A DNA stretch of 48,341 bases, from the NCBI GenBank assembly GCA_004366205.1, contig SIRW01000056.1, forward strand, positions 1 through 48,341. Reading direction: 5' to 3'. The notes under the pieces were generated by a model that was given only the letters and a program-made list of their open reading frames with translations, ran no database searches and had not been told where the DNA came from. Of this stretch, positions 1,966 through 28,967 are shown piece after piece (within the stretch, counting starts at the first letter, position 1; each line of letters starts with the position of its first letter). The translations under genes and the position numbers were made by a program. Origin of the DNA: Actinomycetota bacterium. Lineage in GTDB: Bacteria > Actinomycetota > Acidimicrobiia > Acidimicrobiales > CADCSY01.

Positions 1966-2885
1966 GAGACGGGCTCGCCCCTGGCGGCGCGCTCCTGACG
2001 GCGCTCGGTGAGGCGGCGGGCGGCCTTGCCCAGGCGCTCGATGTGGGCGAGCACCCGGGTGCGGGCCTCCTCGGCCTCGGCGTTCAGTCCTTCGATGCGC
2101 TCGAGGCCCCAGTGCTCGAGGACGACGGGCACCAGCACGTGGTCGTGGTGGCTGGCGAAGTCGTAGATGCCGGCGCGGGCGATGGCCTTGGCGTGCGTCC
2201 CGAAGTCGGGGATGCCGGTGCCGGGCATCTCGAAGTCGCGCACCTGACGGTCGATGGCGAGCACGACCTCGGAGGGGTCGATCTCGATGGCCGCGCTGGT
2301 GGCGTCCCGGTAGAACACGAAGTGCAGGTTCTCGTCGCCGGCGACCCGGGCCATGATCTCGTAGCCGACCCGGTCGTCGAGCAGCCGGCCGGTGTTGCGG
2401 TGGGCGAGACGGGTCGCGAGCTCCTGCAGGGTCACGTACACCATCCCGTCGCACGGGCGGCCGGGCTCGGGCACCTCGCCGGTGCTGACCTGCACCATGC
2501 GGCCCCGCTCGAGGGCGACCGGGTCGACGGCGCGGGTGACGGTGAGGTAGTCGCGCAGCACGATCGAGTGGCGCCCCTCCTCGGCGGTCCAGCGCCGGGT
2601 CCACTCCCGCCACGGGTGGTCGACCCCGAACATCGTGTCGATCGTGTGGAAGTAGTGCGGCAGGTTGTCCTCGGTGAGCAGGTTCACGAACAGCGAGCTG
2701 CGCACCTCGGGCGACAGCCCGGCCTCGGCCGGGTCCCACTCGTAGCCCGGTTCGAAGTCCCGGCCCCGGCTCCAGGGCACCATCTCGTGCGGGAACCACT
2801 CCCGGGCGCTCCGGAGGTGCCGTTCGAGCAGGCGCTCGACGGTGGGGGCGAGCTCGTGCAGCAGGATGCGATCGGAGTCGAGCAT
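1959..2885 (-). CDS. Acyl-ACP desaturase (soluble di-iron, FA_desaturase_2)
   Basis: 308 residues. The sequence has the di-iron ligand pattern of the plant and mycobacterial acyl-ACP desaturases: an early Glu in TEDNLPHYFH, EEGRHSIVL (ExxH) in the middle, and DENLHFVFYRD (ExxH) later. These enzymes introduce a cis double bond into an acyl chain held on ACP, using O2 and ferredoxin, in the cytoplasm. The mycobacterial relatives are DesA1 and DesA2. The ATG at 2885 is 6 nt after a TAGGCT box that lies inside a palindrome resembling a TetR-family operator, so control by a lipid-responsive repressor is likely but not shown. No regulator gene is adjacent. Confidence 0.85.
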   Translation of the reverse strand: MLDSDRILLHELAPTVERLLERHLRSAREWFPHEMVPWSRGRDFEPGYEWDPAEAGLSPEVRSSLFVNLLTEDNLPHYFHTIDTMFGVDHPWREWTRRWTAEEGRHSIVLRDYLTVTRAVDPVALERGRMVQVSTGEVPEPGRPCDGMVYVTLQELATRLAHRNTGRLLDDRVGYEIMARVAGDENLHFVFYRDATSAAIEIDPSEVVLAIDRQVRDFEMPGTGIPDFGTHAKAIARAGIYDFASHHDHVLVPVVLEHWGLERIEGLNAEAEEARTRVLAHIERLGKAARRLTERRQERAARGEPVSA

Positions 2886-2891
2886 GCCCGC

Positions 2892-2915
2892 AGCCTACCT
2901 ACTGGTCGGTAGGCT
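2892..2915. promoter_or_regulatory. Palindromic operator with two divergent TAGGCT boxes
   Basis: AGCCTACC (2892-2899) and GGTAGGCT (2908-2915) are exact reverse complements around an 8-bp core; the core CTACTGGTCGGTAG is like TetR-family sites. TAGGCT is present on the minus strand at 2897-2892, 6 nt before the desaturase ATG, and on the plus strand at 2910-2915, upstream of the cyclophilin gene. A protein bound here would cover both -10 boxes. Confidence 0.6.
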
Positions 2916-2964
2916 GAAACAACCGGGCGGCGGCCGGCGGGAGCCGGTGTGCAAGGGTGGAGCC

Positions 2965-3441
2965 ATGGCTTCCCCTCCTCCGATGCAGATCGATCCCGCC
3001 GCCCGCTACGAGGTCACCATCACCACCGACAAGGGCGACCTGGTGCTCGACCTCGACCCGGAGCTGGCGCCCGTCACCGTCAACAACTTCGTGGCCCTCG
3101 CCCGCCAGGGGTTCTACGACGGCCTCACGTTCCACCGGGTGGTGCCCGAGTTCGTGATCCAGGGTGGCTGCCCCGAGGGCAGCGGGCGCGGCAACCCCGG
3201 CTACCGGTTCGCCGACGAGCCCGTGCGGGGCGAGTACACGCTCGGCGCCGTCGCCATGGCCAACGCCGGTCCCGACACCAACGGGTCGCAGTTCTTCATC
3301 TGCATCGACGACTGCCGCCAGAAGCTGGCGCCCAGCTACAACCTGTTCGGCTACGTCACCTCGGGCATCGAGGTCGCCCGGTCGATCGCGGTGGGCGACG
3401 TGATGCGCTCGGTCACGGTCGAGGAGCGGCCCGCCGCCTGA
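2965..3441 (+). CDS. Cyclophilin-type peptidyl-prolyl cis-trans isomerase
   Basis: 158 residues, the size of a single cyclophilin domain without a signal peptide, so probably cytoplasmic. Hallmarks in order: TFHRVVPEFVIQGG (with the catalytic Arg), NTNGSQFFI-like block read here as DTNGSQFFICID, and NLFGYVTSG. It catalyses proline isomerisation during protein folding. The ATG at 2965 is preceded by AAGGG 7 nt upstream; the transcript may begin near 2922, from the plus-strand TAGGCT box in the operator shared with the desaturase, giving a leader of about 40 nt. Confidence 0.9.
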   Translation: MASPPPMQIDPAARYEVTITTDKGDLVLDLDPELAPVTVNNFVALARQGFYDGLTFHRVVPEFVIQGGCPEGSGRGNPGYRFADEPVRGEYTLGAVAMANAGPDTNGSQFFICIDDCRQKLAPSYNLFGYVTSGIEVARSIAVGDVMRSVTVEERPAA

Positions 3442-11846: not shown

Positions 11847-11852
11847 AGCGTA
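11847..11852 (-). promoter_or_regulatory. -10 box TACGCT of the gene at 11841
   Basis: On the minus strand TACGCT ends 5 nt before the GTG at 11841. The palindromic repeat element begins about 50 bp further upstream. Confidence 0.45.
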
Positions 11853-11904
11853 CGCCCTTCCAGCCGCCGGGCCCGACCATGCCGAATGCAACCCACCTGC
11901 CGCC

Positions 11905-12027
11905 CCCGTGCGCGTTTTATCGAATCACCCACCGAATCACCCACCGAATCACCCAGCGAATCGGTCACCGAATCGGTCACCGAATCGGCCGTCGAATCGG
12001 TCACCGAATCGATAAAACGCGCCCGGG
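11905..12027. repeat. Palindromic element with seven 12-bp units (intergenic copy)
   Basis: Left arm GCGCGTTTTATCGA (11910-11923) and right arm TCGATAAAACGCGC (12009-12022) are perfect 14-bp inverted repeats; with one mismatch they extend to 19 bp (11905-11923 and 12009-12027). Between them are seven contiguous 12-bp units (11924-12007), grading from ATCACCCACCGA to ATCGGTCACCGA. The commonest motif, ACCGAATCGGT, is a dyad around a central A. Common units have 7 of 12 G+C, well below the neighbourhood. It lies between two minus-strand genes, 19 bp after the stop at 12047 and about 60 bp before the GTG at 11841. Mobility is inferred from the related second copy at 24661-24831. Confidence 0.9.
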
Positions 12028-12046
12028 TGTGGGAGGTGGTGGGTGC

Positions 12047-13858
12047 TCAGCCGGCGGCCGGGGGGTCGAGGGGGCCGAGGAACAGCCCGACGGTCTCGCG
12101 GTCCGTCGCTCCCTCCACGAGGACGACGCGCCGCTCGCCATCGTGCTCTCGCCGGGCGGCGTTCCCCTCCCGGATGCGCAGCGCCGTCGTGACGGCGGGG
12201 TCGTACCGGCGTCCGGGTCCGAGCTGGCGCTCGAGCCCCTCGTCGCCGGGCCCCACGACGAAGCGGACGCCCCGCCGTTGCAGCTCGGCCATCACAGGTC
12301 CGCTGTAGGGCTCGGCGAACCGGACACCCCGGAGGTCCACCACGAGGGGCTCCTCCCCCTCCAGCACGTCCATACCCGCCAGGAGCTGGCGGACGACGGG
12401 CATCGCCCAGGCGTCGGCTGCCGGGCCGCTCTGCCCCTCGTGCGTGGGCAGGTTGAGAGCGGCCAGGACCGCCGCCAGCAGGGTGAGCAGCCCGCCGGCG
12501 AGCCGGGGCCGGGCCCGCAGCGGCGGCGCCAGGCGGACCACACCCAGCAGGATGGTGGCGGTCACGAACACCGCGATCGGCCACAGCCACCGGAACTGGT
12601 GGGGCGCGACACCGAGCGTGCCGATCGGCATGCTGGCGGCGGTGACCGTCCCGGCGGCGAGGACGACAGCGCTCACCGCGGTCGCCGATGCGAGGGTGCG
12701 GTCCGAGCGTGCTCGTGCCGCCACCGCCACCGTGGCCAGGGCAGCGACGAGAAGGGCAAGGGAGGTGCCGGCCGCCGCGGCCCCTGGCAGCTCGAGCAGC
12801 TCGGGATCGACCCGATTGACGGCCTGGTCCGGGAGGAAGGCGTCCTCGAACGAGGGCCGCCCCCACCACGGCGGGAGCGCCACGACCGATGCGGTCATGC
12901 GCAACCCGTCCACGGCGCCGACCCGAACCGGTGAGCTGCCCGCCCCCTCGGCCAGGCGGGCCAGGTTCCCGTCGCCCCCGTAGCGGATCTGCTCGAGGAC
13001 CGGTTGCGCCCAGCACAGCGCCAGCGCCCCGACCGCGACCACGGCGATCCACCCGGCCCGCGGCGGGGAGCCACTGCTGGACCGCGGGGTGGGACGGGAC
13101 CGCCTTCGGGCATGCACCCCGAACGCCACTGTGCCGACGAGGACCAGCACGCCGGTCAGCAGGAAGTAGCTGAAGTGCGTCTGCACGAGCAGGCTGCCGA
13201 CCACCGCCGTCCACGGCAGCGCCACCAGGTCGCCGTCGACGAGCGACCACGTCAGCACCAGCAAGAGCAGGAACGGCAACAGGAGGCTGTGCGGCTGCCA
13301 CGGCTCGTAGAGCAGCTCGCTGCCCATCGACCAGGCCAGCCCGGCGCCGGCGACGGCCCCCGCCCCGGCTCCGACCGCCCCGGCCCGCCGCCAGGCGAAC
13401 ACCACGACGAGGCTGGCCGCGACCACGTTCAGCGCCGCCGCGCCCACCGCGATCCCCGCGCCGCCCACCCCGAAGCGGGCGGGGATGGCGTAGAGGTCGA
13501 ACAGCAGCGGCCCGGGGTTGTTCATGTGCACCCCCGCGGTGAGCGACGCCGAGGTCCAGGTGCCGAGCAGGGGATGGTGCTCGGTGAGCACGTCCCGGGC
13601 CCGGATCACGAAGTAGGCGTTGTCGCCGACCGGGACCCACCCGCGGGCCAGCCCCCGAGCGGCCGCGACGACGATCGGCAGGGCGGCCACGGCGAGCGCG
13701 CCGGCGAGGATCGCCCGCGCTTCCCGGCCCGGCGCCCCGTCCGCTCCCGTTCGCCTCGATCGCCGCCGCCCCCGGCCCGACCGCGAGCTGGGGCCGTCCG
13801 GTCGAGCCGAGCCCCGCTCCCGCCCCGCCTCGGTGGGCTCGGTCTCAGTAGCCGGCAT
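12047..13858 (-). CDS. Polytopic GT-C-like membrane protein (tandem paralogue 2)
   Basis: 603 residues. A basic, disordered N-terminus of ~50 residues is followed by about twelve hydrophobic segments. The first outer loop has VGDNAYFVIRARDVL and later GVHMNNPGPLLFDLYAIP, a pattern shared with the preceding gene (HPGPISFWALAGP). The C-terminal ~130 residues are soluble and probably outside, ending VGLFLGPLDPP; the neighbour ends AVFLGPPD. The two genes are therefore diverged tandem duplicates of a GT39-like family. The ATG at 13858 overlaps the previous gene by 14 bp. A role in envelope-glycan assembly is inferred from fold and context. Confidence 0.7.
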   Translation of the reverse strand: MPATETEPTEAGRERGSARPDGPSSRSGRGRRRSRRTGADGAPGREARAILAGALAVAALPIVVAAARGLARGWVPVGDNAYFVIRARDVLTEHHPLLGTWTSASLTAGVHMNNPGPLLFDLYAIPARFGVGGAGIAVGAAALNVVAASLVVVFAWRRAGAVGAGAGAVAGAGLAWSMGSELLYEPWQPHSLLLPFLLLLVLTWSLVDGDLVALPWTAVVGSLLVQTHFSYFLLTGVLVLVGTVAFGVHARRRSRPTPRSSSGSPPRAGWIAVVAVGALALCWAQPVLEQIRYGGDGNLARLAEGAGSSPVRVGAVDGLRMTASVVALPPWWGRPSFEDAFLPDQAVNRVDPELLELPGAAAAGTSLALLVAALATVAVAARARSDRTLASATAVSAVVLAAGTVTAASMPIGTLGVAPHQFRWLWPIAVFVTATILLGVVRLAPPLRARPRLAGGLLTLLAAVLAALNLPTHEGQSGPAADAWAMPVVRQLLAGMDVLEGEEPLVVDLRGVRFAEPYSGPVMAELQRRGVRFVVGPGDEGLERQLGPGRRYDPAVTTALRIREGNAARREHDGERRVVLVEGATDRETVGLFLGPLDPPAAG

Positions 13859-23076: not shown

Positions 23077-24267
23077 ATGACCGACCCGTCCCTGCCACGC
23101 GCCTCCGACCACGACACCGCCGTCGCCAAGCTCGGCGACATCGCCGCGGCGGCGGGCCTGCGCCGCATCCACATGCTGTCGTGGCGCGACCTCGACGACG
23201 TCGAGGCGGGCGGGTCCGAGGTCCACGCCAGCACCGTCGCCCGCCTGTGGGCCGAGGCCGGCATCGACGTGACCCTACGTACCTCCTATGCCCAGGGCCA
23301 CCCCCCCACGATCGTCCGGGACGGCTACAAGGTCGTGCGCCGGGCGGGGCGCTACCTGATCTTCCCCCGTGCCGCGCTGTGGGAGCTCAGCGGGCGGGCC
23401 GGCCCCCGCGACGGCCTGGTGGAGATCTGGAACGGGATGCCCTTCTTCTCTCCCCTGTGGGCGAGGGGGCCCCGCATCGCCTTCCTGCACCACGTCCACG
23501 CCGAGATGTGGCACATGGTGCTGCCCCCGAACCTGGCCCGCTTCGGCGACGCGCTCGAGCGGCGTGTCGCCCCGCCCATCTACCGGCGCACCCGCATCGT
23601 CACGCTGTCGTCGTCCTCCAAAGACGAGCTGGTGCACGAGCTCGGCTTCCGTCCCGAGCGCGTGGACGTGGTGCCCCCGGGCATCGACCCCCTGTACTCG
23701 CCCGCCGGGGAGAAGGCAGCGCACCCGCTGGTGCTCGCCGTGGGCCGGCTCGTCCCGGTGAAGCGCTACGACGTGCTGATCGACGTCCTCGCCCGGCTCC
23801 GGGCGCGGCACCCCACCCTCGAGGCGGTGATCGCCGGTGAAGGCTACGAGCGCCTCGCCCTCGAAGAGCGCGTCCGGGACCACGACGCCGCCGGCTGGTT
23901 GCGCCTCCCGGGGCGGGTCACGGGCGATGAGCTGCTGGCGCTGTACCGCCGGGCGTGGGTGCTGGCCAGCGCCTCGGCTCGGGAAGGCTGGAACATGAGC
24001 ATCACGGAGGCGGCGGCGTGCGGGACCCCGGCCGTGGTCACCGACATCGTCGGGCACCGCGACGCCGTCGCCGCCGGGCGCAGCGGGCTGCTGGCCGAGG
24101 GTGCGGAAGGGCTCGCGGAGGGGCTCGATCGGGTTCTCGGCGATGGCGAGCTGCGCCGGCGTCTCGGTGCCGGCGCGCTCGAGCACGCGGCCCGGTTCAC
24201 GTGGGAGGCCACCGCCGCCGGCACCCTCACGGCCCTCGCGTCCGAGGCGCTCCGCCGCCGGCGATGA
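23077..24267 (+). CDS. GT4-family (GT-B) glycosyltransferase
   Basis: 396 residues. The N-terminal domain has RRIHMLSWRDLDDVEAGGSE, where AGGSE is the usual GT4 start. The C-terminal domain has VLAVGRLVPVKRYDVLI, VIAGEGYE, and the donor site SAREGWNMSITEAAACGTP (EGWNxxxxEA), the GT4 E-x7-E motif. It would transfer a sugar from a nucleotide donor in the cytoplasm. ATG 23077 was chosen; an in-frame ATG at 23038 overlaps the divergent gene's start. Its stop overlaps the AftD-like start (ATGA), so the two are translated together. Confidence 0.85.
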   Translation: MTDPSLPRASDHDTAVAKLGDIAAAAGLRRIHMLSWRDLDDVEAGGSEVHASTVARLWAEAGIDVTLRTSYAQGHPPTIVRDGYKVVRRAGRYLIFPRAALWELSGRAGPRDGLVEIWNGMPFFSPLWARGPRIAFLHHVHAEMWHMVLPPNLARFGDALERRVAPPIYRRTRIVTLSSSSKDELVHELGFRPERVDVVPPGIDPLYSPAGEKAAHPLVLAVGRLVPVKRYDVLIDVLARLRARHPTLEAVIAGEGYERLALEERVRDHDAAGWLRLPGRVTGDELLALYRRAWVLASASAREGWNMSITEAAACGTPAVVTDIVGHRDAVAAGRSGLLAEGAEGLAEGLDRVLGDGELRRRLGAGALEHAARFTWEATAAGTLTALASEALRRRR

Positions 24268-27200
24268 CGCCAGGCCCAGGCCAGGCGGCGCGCCCACCCG
24301 AGGACCGGCCCTGGTGGTGGCGGCGCCGGCACGGGCTTGTGCACCACGCCGTCCTGGCGGCGCTCTGCTACCCGGCGTTGCTGCTGACCGCACCCGGGCA
24401 GGTGGCGGCCGACACCAAGACGTACCTGTACCTGGAGCCCGGGCGCCTGCTCGCGCGGGCGCCGTCGATGTGGGATCCCAACATCGGGTTGGGCACCGTC
24501 ACCCACCAGAACATCGGCTACCTGTTCCCGATGGGGCCGTGGTACTGGCTCTTCGACCGGCTCGGATCGCCGGACTGGGTCGCCCAGCGCCTCTGGCTCG
24601 CCACGATCATGTTCCTGGCCGGCGCCGGCGTGCTGTTCCTCCTGCGCACCCTTGGTCCCACCCGTGCGCGTTTTATCGATTCGCCCACCGATTCGCCCAC
24701 CGAATCACCCACCGAATCACCCACCGAATCACCCACCAAATCGGCCACCGAATCGGTCGCAGATTCGGCCACCGAATCGGCCACCGAATCGGGCACCGAA
24801 TCGGTGGGCGAATCGATAAAACGCGCTCGGGGGTGGCCAGTGGCGGGGACAGCGGCGTGGGCGCGGGCGGTGGCGGGAGCAGCCACGCCGGCGCGGGCGG
24901 CGGTGGGGGCAGCGGCCCTGGCAGGGGCGGTGCTGTACGCCCTCAGCCCCTACGTCCTGCACTACTCGGCGCGCATCTCGGTGCTGCTGCTGCCGTGGGC
25001 CGCGCTGCCGTGGCTGATCGGGCTGACCCAGCGGGCGATCCGCACAGGGAGCTGGCGGCACCCGGCCGCCTTCGCCATCGCCGTCACGCTCGTCGGTGGC
25101 GTGAACGCCACCGCCCTCGTGCTCGCCGGCATCGGCCCGCTGCTCTGGCTCGCGTTCGCCGCCTTCGTCCACCGCGAAGCACCTCCCCGGGCCGTCCTGG
25201 CGGCCGCCGCCCGCATCGGCGTCCTCACGACCGCCTGCTCGCTGTGGTGGATCGCCGGCCTCGCCGTGCAGGGCGGGTGGGGCATCGACATCCTCCGCTA
25301 CACCGAGACCGTCGAGACCGTCGCCCGCACGTCGCTCGCCTCCGAGGTGCTGCGGGGGCTCGGCTACTGGTTCTTCTACGGCGGGGACCTGCTCGGCCCC
25401 TGGATCGAGCCCGGGCGGCGCCACACCCAGGAGCTGTGGCTCATCGCCGCCGGCTTCGCCGTCCCCGCGCTCGCCGCCGTGCTGGGGGTGAGCGCGCAGT
25501 GGCGGTACCGGGCGTTCTTCGTGGCGCTCGTCGTGGCCGGCACGGCCGTGGCCGTCGGGGCGTACCCCTTCAACGACCCCTCCCCCGCCGGCAGCGTGTT
25601 CCGGGACCTGGCCACGACCTCGACCGTCGGGCTGGCGATGCGCAGCACCCCCCGCGCCGTGCCCCTCGTCGTGCTCGGCCTGGCCGTGCTCGTCGCCGCC
25701 GGACTGGCGGCGCTCGGCCGGAGGTTGCCGCGGGCGGGCACGGCCGCCGCGCTCGCGGTCGTGGCCCTCGCCATGGCGGGCCTGCCCTCGCTGTGGCTCG
25801 GCGAGATGATCGGCGAGAACCTGCAACGTCCCGAGGAGGTGCCGCGCTACTGGCGGGAGGCCGCGGCGTGGCTGGACGAACGCGGCCACGACACGCGCGT
25901 GCTCGAGGTGCCGGGCAGCGACTTCGCCTCGTACCGCTGGGGCAACACCGTCGATCCGATCACCCCGGGGCTGATGGACCGGCCCTACGTGGCGCGTGAG
26001 TTGATCCCCTACGGGTCGCCGCCGTCGGCCGACCTCCTCATCGCGCTCGACCGGCGCTTCCAGGAGGGCGTCCTCGACCCGGCGGCCATCGCTCCGGTCG
26101 CCCGGCTCATGGCCGTGGGCGACGTGGTGCTGCGCGCCGACCTGCAGTGGGACCGCTATCGCACGCCCCGGCCGCGTCACCTCTGGGACCTCCTGACGCC
26201 GCCGCCCGACGGCCTGGGCGACCCTGTCGCCTTCGGCCCGCCCACCCCCAACGAGCCCTCGCGCGCCACGCCGCTCATCGACGCGCTCACCCTCGCCGTG
26301 CCGGCAGGCACACCGGACCCACCGCCCGTGGCGGCCTTCCCGGTGCGCGACGCCCAACCGATCCTGCGGGCGCGCCCCCCCGCAGCCGTTGTCCTCGCCG
26401 GCGACGGCGAAGGCGTGGTGGAGGCAGCCGCCGCCGGCCTGCTCGACGGCCCCGCACCACTGCTGTACTCGGCCGGGCTCGACGCCGCGCAGTGGTCCCG
26501 CCTGGCCGGGAGCGGCCTGGTCGAGCGCCTCGTCCTCACCGACACGAACCGGCGGCAGGCCCGGAGGTGGAGCACGGTGCGCGAGACGGCCGGCCAGACC
26601 GAGCGACCCGGCCAGGAGCCGCTGGTCGACGACATCAGCGACAACCGCCTACCTGTGTTCCCGGGCGCAGGTGACGACGCCCGCACGGTGATCGAGCAGC
26701 GAGGCGTGCGCCGGGTCGACGCCACGGCCTACGGCAACACGATCAGCTACACACCCGAGGACCGGCCCGCGCTCGCCCTCGACGGCCGGCTCGACACGGC
26801 GTGGCGGGTCGGCGGGTTCGGCCCCGTCGTCGGTCAGCGCTGGGAGGTGGAGCTCGAGGCACCCGTCACCGTCGACCACGTCAACGTGGTGCAGCCCCTG
26901 CACGGCCACCGGAACCGCTTCATCACCGAGGTCGAGGTCCGGGTCGACGGCGAGGCCGTCGGCACCTACGCCCTCGACGACCGCTCCCGCACACCGGAGG
27001 GCCAGGACCTCGCCTTCGGCGCCCGGCCCGTCTCGCTGCTGCAGCTGATCGTGACCGCCGACAACGTCGGGCCCCTCCCCGACTACGCCGGCTGGAGCCC
27101 GGCGGGCTTCGCCGCGGTGCGCCTCGGCGACGTGCGCGTCGAGGAGGTCGTGCGCCTCCCGCTCGACCTGCTCACCCGGGCCGCCCACGCCCGGGAGTCA

Positions 27201-28967
27201 CGAGAGGGCACGCTGGCCCGCCGGGCCCCACTCGACATCGTGCTCGGCCGGTGGCGGGCCAACCCGCTGGAGACCGAGCGCCGCGACCCCGAGCCGGCCC
27301 TGGCCCGGACCTTCCGCTTGCCCGTCCCCCGAACCTTCACGCTCGCCGGCCACGCCCGGCTGGCGGCGGACGCGCCCGACCACGTCCTCGAGGAGGTGCT
27401 CGGGGCCACCGGGCCGGTGGCGCGGTCGTCGAGCCGGCTGCCCGGCCTGCCCCGCGCACGGGCCGCGGCCGTGCTCGACGGCGACCCGTCCACCGCCTGG
27501 ATCGCGGCCTTCGGCGAGCAGATCGGCCAGTGGCTCGAGGTGCACTCGCCCGAGGCGCTGGCCGTCGAGCGCGTCGAGGTCGACGTGGTGGCCGATGGCC
27601 GCCATTCCGTGCCCACGGCCCTGCTCGTGGTCGTCGACGGCGAGGTGGTGGCCCGGGCCGAGCTGCCCCCGGTCCGCGACGGCAGCGAGGAGGGCGCCAC
27701 GACGACGGTGACGGTCGATGTCGGCGGGGCCGTGGGCCGATCGATCCGCCTCGTCGTCGACGACGTGCGGCCCGTGCACGGCAGTGACTCGTTCAGCCAC
27801 GACCCCCGCGAGCTGCCGGTCGCGATCGCCGGCGTTCGCATCCCCGGCCTTCCGCCGGCGACGCCCGGCCCGGAGACGGGCGACGGGGCCAGCGACCCTG
27901 GATCGGCGGCCCTGCCGGCGCCGTGCCGGGCCGACCTCCTGCGGCTCGGCGACCGGCCCGTCCACGTGCGCGTGGCGGGGACCGTGGCCGACGCCCTCGC
28001 CCGCCGGCCCCTGACGGTCGAGCTGTGCGGGCCCGACGCCCGCGGGCTGGTCCTGCCCGCGGGCGACCACGACCTGTTCGCCGCGCCGGGCGCCGACACC
28101 GGCGTCGACCTCGACCGGCTCGTGCTCTCCTCGCCGGGAGCGCAGGAGCCGCGGCGCGCCCCGCCGCCGGCCCTCGCGGTCACGGGCGAGGGCCGGACCG
28201 CCGCCGACGTCCGCCTGACGGGCATCGACGGTCCGTTCTGGCTGGTGCTCGCGCAGAGCCACAACCCCGGCTGGCGGGCCCGCGTCGATGGGCTCGGCGA
28301 CCTCGGCGACCCGGTCATCGTCGACGGGTACGCCAACGGCTGGCTGATCGACCCCGGGGACCGCACCGAGCTCGCCGTCGCCCTCCGCTGGACCCCCCAG
28401 CGCATGGTGTGGGCCGCGCTCGCCCTGTCCGCCGTCGCCTTCCTCGCCAGCCTGCTCATCGCCCTCAGCCCGTGGCTCCCGCCCCTCGCTCGAGGCGACC
28501 GGCGCGCACGCCGCCGGCCGCCGGCTGCGCCCGCCGGCGACGCCCCCGGGTGGGGCGGCCCCCTCCCGGTGCTCCATGCGCCCTGGGCCCCCGTCGGCGC
28601 CCGCCCGCCGGTCGTGCCGGCCGTCCTCGTGGCCCTCGGCGCCGCCGCGCTGGCCGGTGCGATGGTACGGCCGTGGGTGGGGCTCCTGGCCCTCGGCGCC
28701 GCCCTGCTCGGCCTGCTGACCGGGCGGGGCCGGGTCCTGCTCGGCGCCGGCGCGGCCGGCGCCATCGCCCTCGCCGGCGCCTACGTCGTGGCCCGCCAGG
28801 CCCGCCACGGCTATCCACCCGACTTCGGCTGGCCCGCCCACTTCCACCGCGCCCACCTGCTCGCCTGGGTCGGCCTGGTGCTCCTCGGGGTCCACGCCGG
28901 TGTCGACGTGACCCGGGAGCGGCGCCGCCGTCCCCACCACGATCCCCAGGCAGATCCCCAGGGTTGA
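24264..28967 (+). CDS. aftD: Alpha-(1->3)-arabinofuranosyltransferase, AftD-like (DUF3367)
   Basis: 1567 residues; mycobacterial AftD has about 1400. The N-terminal GT-C core shows the family block DTKTYLYLEPGRLLARAPS, MWDPNIGLG and later YALSPYVLHYSARISVLLLP. Two galactose-binding or F5/8-type regions are suggested near residues 820-960 and 1025-1190 (LDGRLDTAWR and LDGDPSTAWI blocks), and membrane helices close the protein (about 1380-1530). AftD adds arabinofuranose branches to arabinogalactan and lipoarabinomannan from decaprenyl-phosphoryl arabinose at the outer face. Residues 135-188 are unlike any AftD segment I know: they are encoded by a palindromic 12-bp repeat element inserted in frame between early membrane segments. 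The ATG at 24264 overlaps the GT4 stop (ATGA). Confidence 0.8.
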   Translation: MTPGPGQAARPPEDRPWWWRRRHGLVHHAVLAALCYPALLLTAPGQVAADTKTYLYLEPGRLLARAPSMWDPNIGLGTVTHQNIGYLFPMGPWYWLFDRLGSPDWVAQRLWLATIMFLAGAGVLFLLRTLGPTRARFIDSPTDSPTESPTESPTESPTKSATESVADSATESATESGTESVGESIKRARGWPVAGTAAWARAVAGAATPARAAVGAAALAGAVLYALSPYVLHYSARISVLLLPWAALPWLIGLTQRAIRTGSWRHPAAFAIAVTLVGGVNATALVLAGIGPLLWLAFAAFVHREAPPRAVLAAAARIGVLTTACSLWWIAGLAVQGGWGIDILRYTETVETVARTSLASEVLRGLGYWFFYGGDLLGPWIEPGRRHTQELWLIAAGFAVPALAAVLGVSAQWRYRAFFVALVVAGTAVAVGAYPFNDPSPAGSVFRDLATTSTVGLAMRSTPRAVPLVVLGLAVLVAAGLAALGRRLPRAGTAAALAVVALAMAGLPSLWLGEMIGENLQRPEEVPRYWREAAAWLDERGHDTRVLEVPGSDFASYRWGNTVDPITPGLMDRPYVARELIPYGSPPSADLLIALDRRFQEGVLDPAAIAPVARLMAVGDVVLRADLQWDRYRTPRPRHLWDLLTPPPDGLGDPVAFGPPTPNEPSRATPLIDALTLAVPAGTPDPPPVAAFPVRDAQPILRARPPAAVVLAGDGEGVVEAAAAGLLDGPAPLLYSAGLDAAQWSRLAGSGLVERLVLTDTNRRQARRWSTVRETAGQTERPGQEPLVDDISDNRLPVFPGAGDDARTVIEQRGVRRVDATAYGNTISYTPEDRPALALDGRLDTAWRVGGFGPVVGQRWEVELEAPVTVDHVNVVQPLHGHRNRFITEVEVRVDGEAVGTYALDDRSRTPEGQDLAFGARPVSLLQLIVTADNVGPLPDYAGWSPAGFAAVRLGDVRVEEVVRLPLDLLTRAAHARESREGTLARRAPLDIVLGRWRANPLETERRDPEPALARTFRLPVPRTFTLAGHARLAADAPDHVLEEVLGATGPVARSSSRLPGLPRARAAAVLDGDPSTAWIAAFGEQIGQWLEVHSPEALAVERVEVDVVADGRHSVPTALLVVVDGEVVARAELPPVRDGSEEGATTTVTVDVGGAVGRSIRLVVDDVRPVHGSDSFSHDPRELPVAIAGVRIPGLPPATPGPETGDGASDPGSAALPAPCRADLLRLGDRPVHVRVAGTVADALARRPLTVELCGPDARGLVLPAGDHDLFAAPGADTGVDLDRLVLSSPGAQEPRRAPPPALAVTGEGRTAADVRLTGIDGPFWLVLAQSHNPGWRARVDGLGDLGDPVIVDGYANGWLIDPGDRTELAVALRWTPQRMVWAALALSAVAFLASLLIALSPWLPPLARGDRRARRRPPAAPAGDAPGWGGPLPVLHAPWAPVGARPPVVPAVLVALGAAALAGAMVRPWVGLLALGAALLGLLTGRGRVLLGAGAAGAIALAGAYVVARQARHGYPPDFGWPAHFHRAHLLAWVGLVLLGVHAGVDVTRERRRRPHHDPQADPQG
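24661..24831. repeat. Palindromic element with eleven 12-bp units (in-frame in aftD)
   Basis: The arms 24666-24695 and 24797-24826 are a perfect 30-bp inverted repeat that begins with GCGCGTTTTATCGA. With one mismatch at 24665/24827 it continues 5 bp further out, giving 24661-24831 (171 bp). Eleven 12-bp units fill 24680-24811 (TTCGCCCACCGA, ATCACCCACCGA, ATCGGCCACCGA and variants). The reading frame passes straight through, giving A-R-F-I-D-S, then [D/E]SxT or [D/E]SxA units, then E-S-I-K-R-A. The reverse strand is also open and gives a similar peptide. Slippage between units would change the protein in steps of four residues. Confidence 0.95.

Follow-up and report, generated by a model that had tools for sequence, protein, structure and literature searches.

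A dispersed family of palindromic elements with a phased GAWTC array, read in frame in protein genes of an actinobacterium

It has been proposed that new protein segments can originate from in-frame palindromes, which have been described chiefly in Rickettsia, Wolbachia, a single archaeon and the MITEs of enterobacteria. The Rickettsia palindromic elements (RPEs) are 105–146 bp long, form hairpins, carry terminal inverted repeats and lie both between genes and in frame within conserved genes; what moves them is unknown (Ogata et al. 2000, via PMC2229807 and PMC10969869). In-frame palindromic repeats are also described in protein genes of Wolbachia and Methanocaldococcus (PMC2229807, PMC2996958). 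For actinobacteria we found no in-frame palindromic element in the open-access literature, a scope outside which most subscription papers fall.

Here we analyse a 48,341-nt stretch of DNA from an Acidimicrobiales bacterium (hereafter the window) together with its own genome, a draft of 3.44 Mb in 119 contigs. The first-pass annotation of the window described a palindromic element read through by an AftD-like gene and likened it to RPEs. The likeness is borne out: the genome contains 14 arrays of this type, eight of them complete, within genes and between them, and homologues in relatives do not have the segment. We favour, with some reserve, the view that they are palindromic mobile elements of a non-autonomous kind, a family specific to this lineage that lives much as RPEs or coding MITEs do. 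Their mobility is inferred from dispersal, as neither a transposase nor a target duplication nor an empty site in another strain has been shown.

The copy inside the AftD-like gene is composed as follows.

24264–28967, plus strand: gene of the AftD-like alpha-(1->3)-arabinofuranosyltransferase (GT-C), host of the element; Pfam PF11847 GT-C_AftD, E 1.4e-87
24606–24665, plus strand: left C-rich flank, 25 C to 16 G, strongest in its last 30 nt
24666–24826, plus strand: complete palindromic element of 161 bp (12n+5), in frame, read as ARFIDS-(D/E S x T)n-ESIKRA
24666–24682, plus strand: left terminus GCGCGTTTTATCGATTC; the perfect inverted repeat runs on to 24695
24678–24814, plus strand: 12-bp array with a GAWTC core each 12 bp, 12 sites, one of which is AAATC
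24810–24826, minus strand: right terminus, reverse complement of the left one (inverted repeat 24797–24826)
24827–24932, plus strand: right flank, rich in G; 24840–24932 within it is a tandem repeat of 30 bp, likewise G-rich

The perfect 30-bp inverted repeat reported earlier is real: 24666–24695 and 24797–24826 are exact reverse complements, about 3e-11 such pairs are expected by chance in the window, and a chance origin is excluded. The size of 171 bp given with it corresponds to 24661–24831, and only 161 bp of this (24666–24826) are the palindrome proper. Where eleven 12-bp units were noted before, there are eleven exact GAWTC sites and the one AAATC, spaced by 12 bp throughout. Read from the ATG at 24264, the gene indeed passes through the element with no stop, the peptide from ARFIDS to ESIKRA occupying residues 135–188, and the claimed contrast in base composition amounts to 60.2% G+C in the element vs 76.2% in the gene. 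The PF11847 match falls into two stretches, of which the best begins at residue 216, past the insert. Folded as single-stranded DNA, the element has z = -11.7.

A second complete copy, absent from the first-pass annotation, lies in the same window.

11850–11909, no strand assigned: left C-rich flank, 30 C to 14 G
11910–12022, no strand assigned: second complete element, 113 bp, intergenic, 24 bp beyond the stop of the minus-strand gene 12047–13690
12023–12082, no strand assigned: right G-rich flank, 35 G to 12 C

Two other features of the window are recorded here in their own right. A 126-bp tandem repeat of 3.5 copies (93% alike) spans 573–1014, in the gene 217–1536 with a YkuD L,D-transpeptidase domain. 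At 2512–2579 on the plus strand, opposite the minus-strand gene 1959–2885, Rfam matches the antisense sRNA ASdes with 65 bits (cut-off 40), which may merely reflect conservation of a desaturase gene on the opposite strand.

A search of the genome for further copies, which the first-pass annotation had proposed as a check, showed that the pair of repeats in AftD is not alone. The terminus gives 20 matches at up to 3 mismatches, and the search with the array core returned 85 windows of sequence, every one within the 14 arrays. Eight arrays are complete, four have one terminus and two have none, so that arrays may also arise or persist free of termini, a point against the mobile-element reading. 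In a complete copy a C-rich flank is followed by the 17-bp terminus GCGCGTTTTATCGAWTC, an array of n units, the mirror terminus GAWTCGATAAAACGCGC and a G-rich flank; terminal inverted repeats extend over 17–30 bp overall. The eight complete copies carry identical inverted termini in unrelated contexts. They are 113, 125, 137 or 161 bp long, always 12n+5, and fold as DNA with z from -5.9 to -11.7. Repeat numbers may be wrong, given a single draft assembly.

Five arrays are intergenic (on C52 at 11910 and on C38, C50, C98 and C108) and nine are in coding sequence, with genes called by codon bias and then checked by family search. All five intergenic copies are complete vs 3/9 of the genic ones (P 0.03), which fits trimming of hairpins in genes. 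Every genic copy (9/9) is in frame, and all are placed in loops, linkers or ends of the protein. Apart from AftD, the hosts are as follows.

LipB-LipA fusion protein: array in the linker
ImuB-like Y-family polymerase: array between the catalytic part and the C-terminal region
FabH: array in a surface loop
ECF sigma factor: array in the linker of regions 2 and 4, in the frame giving RIGD
Alpha/beta-hydrolase: array in the C-terminal tail
Thioredoxin-like lipoprotein: array at C51:2878, in a linker
LigT/ThpR-like gene: array at the N-terminal end, start codon uncertain
A ninth genic host, which we take to be an HmgA-like protein (no Pfam match)

Eight of the nine genic copies use the frame GAW-TCG, which gives [D/E]-S-x-x on either strand, with the sigma factor copy as the lone exception. 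Such a bias has P 0.001 if three frames are open and 0.02 if two are. Translation of the insert and its neutrality for the host protein are inferred. The hosts include conserved enzymes and factors (AftD, FabH, lipoyl synthase, the ImuB-like polymerase, the sigma factor), and tolerance of the insert is thus directly testable.

The thioredoxin-like lipoprotein presents a separate peculiarity. In its thioredoxin-like domain (C51, about 2460–3100, minus strand) the first Cys of the CxxC motif is an in-frame TGA (TAC TGA ACG ACC TGC, Y-?-T-T-C), and the sequence to either side of it codes well. The protein is a candidate selenoprotein; Rfam found no SECIS in the 300 bp searched.

The first-pass annotation had also proposed to align AftD homologues and see whether close relatives lack exactly residues 135–188. 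In AftD of relatives, which lacks the segment, the two helices are joined by a few residues, and in the alignment with the mycobacterial AftD (PDB 6w98), which covers residues 30–131 and 218–532, 86 residues here stand against 6 there. Hence the segment is missing from homologues. The insert relative to them exceeds the palindrome itself, because the family is defined by the conserved terminus, the 12-bp GAWTC array and the signature of C-rich and G-rich flanks. The right flank of the AftD copy encodes extra loop residues that close homologues do not have. One relative (G003) also has a longer AftD loop.

Three other hosts give the same picture. ImuB-like proteins of relatives have a short linker without the segment, and FabH has 15 residues extra relative to PDB 8vd9. 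LipB-LipA of relatives also does not contain the segment and is fused nevertheless; the element is thus rejected as the cause of the fusion. Most genomes of the order have LipB and LipA fused in a single reading frame, as does an Acidimicrobiaceae record; from this shared fusion and from gene content the genome is taken as that of an actinobacterium of the Acidimicrobiia type. In one relative (G018) the same ImuB loop carries an unrelated 12-bp tandem repeat (PTAD), and this loop seems repeat-prone.

Outside its genome the family was not met. The exact terminus gives one match in a single one of 97 other relatives, by chance. The three-unit array pattern has 67 matches per strand in the own genome, whereas among 397 genomes of the order none of the others exceeds 2. 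The combined terminus-array pattern in about 85,000 species genomes has 8 chance matches, none with an array and none in Rickettsia. No plasmid or phage match for the element was obtained, and the terminus pattern gave one chance match in viral sequences, so that a plasmid or phage source is rejected. Among the viral-contig matches listed for the array pattern alone, tandem arrays of 12 bp that share the core spacing abound; they are ordinary 12-bp repeats and uninformative. Judged by these searches, the family appears private to this genome as far as tested, within the genomes searched.

In the 99 units, the four fixed bases of GAWTC (G, A, T and C) depart from the consensus at just one of 396 positions (395 conserved), whether the copy is genic or intergenic. 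As the intergenic copies share this conservation, constraint, or recent common origin, acts at the level of DNA. The genic copies keep GAA and GAT, and genome-wide just 6% of Glu and Asp codons end so. The 28 spacer types among the 99 units argue against recent origin alone; a starting set of several unit types is not excluded. Neighbouring units have identical spacers with a frequency of 0.25, units elsewhere in the same array 0.11 and units of other arrays 0.06, and the arrays thus grow in place by tandem duplication.

These data bear on the main rival of the mobile-element reading, namely that the arrays are functional multi-site elements, selected on DNA at about 14 sites and bound by a DNA-binding or DNA-modifying protein. 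The binder would be a nucleoid, segregation or replication factor or a GAWTC-reading enzyme, and sites within genes would simply be read as loops. The constraint on the core in both kinds of copy, the exact 12-bp phasing with length 12n+5 and the codons kept against host usage speak for such a function, and conserved GANTC sites occur also in the Caulobacter CIR repeats (PMC2229807). However, absence from all relatives searched makes a core chromosomal function unlikely, core enzymes are an odd place for a binding site, and GAWTC is neither avoided nor enriched elsewhere (20 sites in the 133 kb examined vs about 18 expected). Methylation of the CcrM type at GANTC is rejected on the same count and for want of CcrM: the lone full-length N6/N4 methylase match scores 55.7 bits against a CcrM cut-off of 830, and its best match is a Thermus methylase. 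The GAWTC constraint supports a binding array and the narrow distribution weakens it; on balance we think it unlikely.

All eight complete copies mark a change from C-rich to G-rich sequence. On either side, the inward skew (C minus G) reaches +0.44 per base over the 30 nt next to the element and has faded to zero at a distance of about 180 nt. It is not a general trait of intergenic DNA, a possibility rejected because other intergenic regions are far below, and homologous sites of relatives have on average no skew (one ImuB homologue has -0.38 on the right side). We found no homology among flanks of different copies, with alignment scores as in shuffles, and the flanks thus share composition only. 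Several right flanks are tandem repeats, and in AftD, LipB-LipA and ImuB the flank codes in part for residues that most homologues do not have. This signature is not explained by simple insertion and counts against the mobile-element reading.

Such flanks could alternatively belong to a bidirectional terminator or RNA-level regulator, in which convergent C-rich, G-poor sequences load Rho on either strand, with the hairpin halting or processing the RNA. The strength of the skew by the element, far above other intergenic regions, would suit this role, as would the position of some intergenic copies 25–120 nt beyond a stop codon. The hairpins are, however, followed by G-rich sequence rather than U tracts, Rfam identifies no known RNA family at the element, and flanks of this same kind are also present midway through genes that look essential and that premature termination would damage. 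We regard termination as improbable.

It might also be supposed that repeats of the ordinary VNTR kind expanded within genes, selected for flexible acidic loops, and that they are convergent rather than dispersed. The unrelated 12-bp repeat in the ImuB loop of the relative shows the kind of event that is meant, and the ordinary viral repeats mean that the spacing alone is not special. Yet the five intergenic copies with identical 17-bp inverted termini and the GAWTC core contradict it, one genic copy is read in another frame (RIGD), and the codons run against host usage, which leaves this explanation very little room. An assembly artefact, with repeats misjoined or invented in a draft of 119 contigs in which short palindromic repeats are hard to assemble, is scarcely credible, since in six hosts (AftD, ImuB, FabH, LipB-LipA, the hydrolase and the sigma factor) the sequences before and after the array are parts of a single protein, correctly ordered and in frame, and arrays never abut a contig end (the closest lie at 299 and 341 bp).

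We return to the family as mobile elements and propose how it may operate. A complete copy is a hairpin-forming unit of 113–161 bp, in which GCGCGTTTTATCGAWTC stands inverted on each side of the GAWTC tandem array. Copies would arise at new sites, probably through the action in trans of a recombinase that the genome no longer has or that goes unrecognised; its target would be the terminus, the GAWTC array or both. Transposition and the recombinase are inferences.

Landing in a gene can be tolerable because stops are scarce in the units whichever of most frames is used. When read as GAW-TCG, the favoured frame, either strand gives ARFI-([D/E]-S-x-x)n-IKRA, hydrophilic and probably a disordered loop. 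The surviving genic copies lie in loops, linkers or ends, and many are trimmed.

No target-site duplication was detected, the longest word shared by the two flanks being 2.88 vs 3.00 in shuffles, which speaks against a plain MITE. Outside the arrays the terminus does not recur in the genome when up to 1 mismatch is allowed; with 2 mismatches its 13-mer has a few matches, which look like chance. As the terminus is thus confined to arrays (at up to 1 mismatch), descent as a MITE from a resident IS or parent transposon with the same ends is rejected. A RAYT/REPIN origin is rejected as well, as no Y1_Tnp (PF01797) is present in the genome.

We advance one further idea tentatively, as possible and no more, under which the arrays would be a new class of small DNA, selfish or functional: the unit of selection would be the phased GAWTC array itself, and a site-reading protein (a recombinase, nuclease or architectural factor) would spread the arrays and leave the convergent flanks, while the same DNA reads as a soluble loop from either strand. 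If true, this would be the first known family of coding palindromes in actinobacteria, and no earlier one would have a tandem binding array as its basis. Two features, the strictly phased GAWTC sites and the flanks with their strand asymmetry, offer a way to approach the mover, which has not been identified for RPEs either.

Last, we compare the element with known systems. Like RPEs, it is a stable stem-loop, here of 113–161 bp, with dispersed copies, five intergenic and nine in frame in coding sequence, whose inserted residues are missing from homologues. Unlike RPEs, it resides in a G+C-rich actinobacterium, contains a GAWTC array, has a length of 12n+5 and is flanked by C-rich and G-rich sequence; RPEs comprise about ten families vs one family of 14 arrays here, and a 12-bp tandem array is not described for them in PMC2229807 and PMC10969869. 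The element works like an RPE but is not one by architecture and, with no Rickettsia genome among the matches to the terminus-array pattern, probably not by descent either. The coding palindromes of Wolbachia and Methanocaldococcus are alike in being in frame and outside Rickettsia, and belong to other lineages.

The enterobacterial ERIC/RU-1, YPAL/RU-2 and RU-3 are similarly MITE-like, intergenic and fused in frame within genes, whereas several of them have target-site duplications and no 12-bp array is described (PMC2759123, PMC2229807). As regards MITEs in general, terminal inverted repeats are present here (17–30 bp), but no target-site duplication was detected and no parent transposon with the same ends (terminus at up to 1 mismatch). 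REPs, which are 20–40 bp and mostly extragenic, and REPINs with RAYT resemble it as dispersed palindromic repeats; Y1_Tnp is absent here.

The Caulobacter CIR are alike as an inverted-repeat family of about 110 bp with conserved GANTC sites, but they are never intragenic, have stops in all frames and carry one GANTC at the loop rather than an array (PMC2229807); the present element departs from them by its in-frame genic copies and in that no CcrM was found. PARCELs, too, are tandem dyad-symmetric repeats read as protein that spread within genomes; they encode a 25-residue amphipathic domain in genes of unknown function (PMC2996958), in contrast to the 4-residue hydrophilic repeat, the conserved-enzyme hosts and the intergenic copies here. 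By the tests made, the element is thus none of RPE, MITE, REPIN, CIR or PARCEL and constitutes a differently built family.
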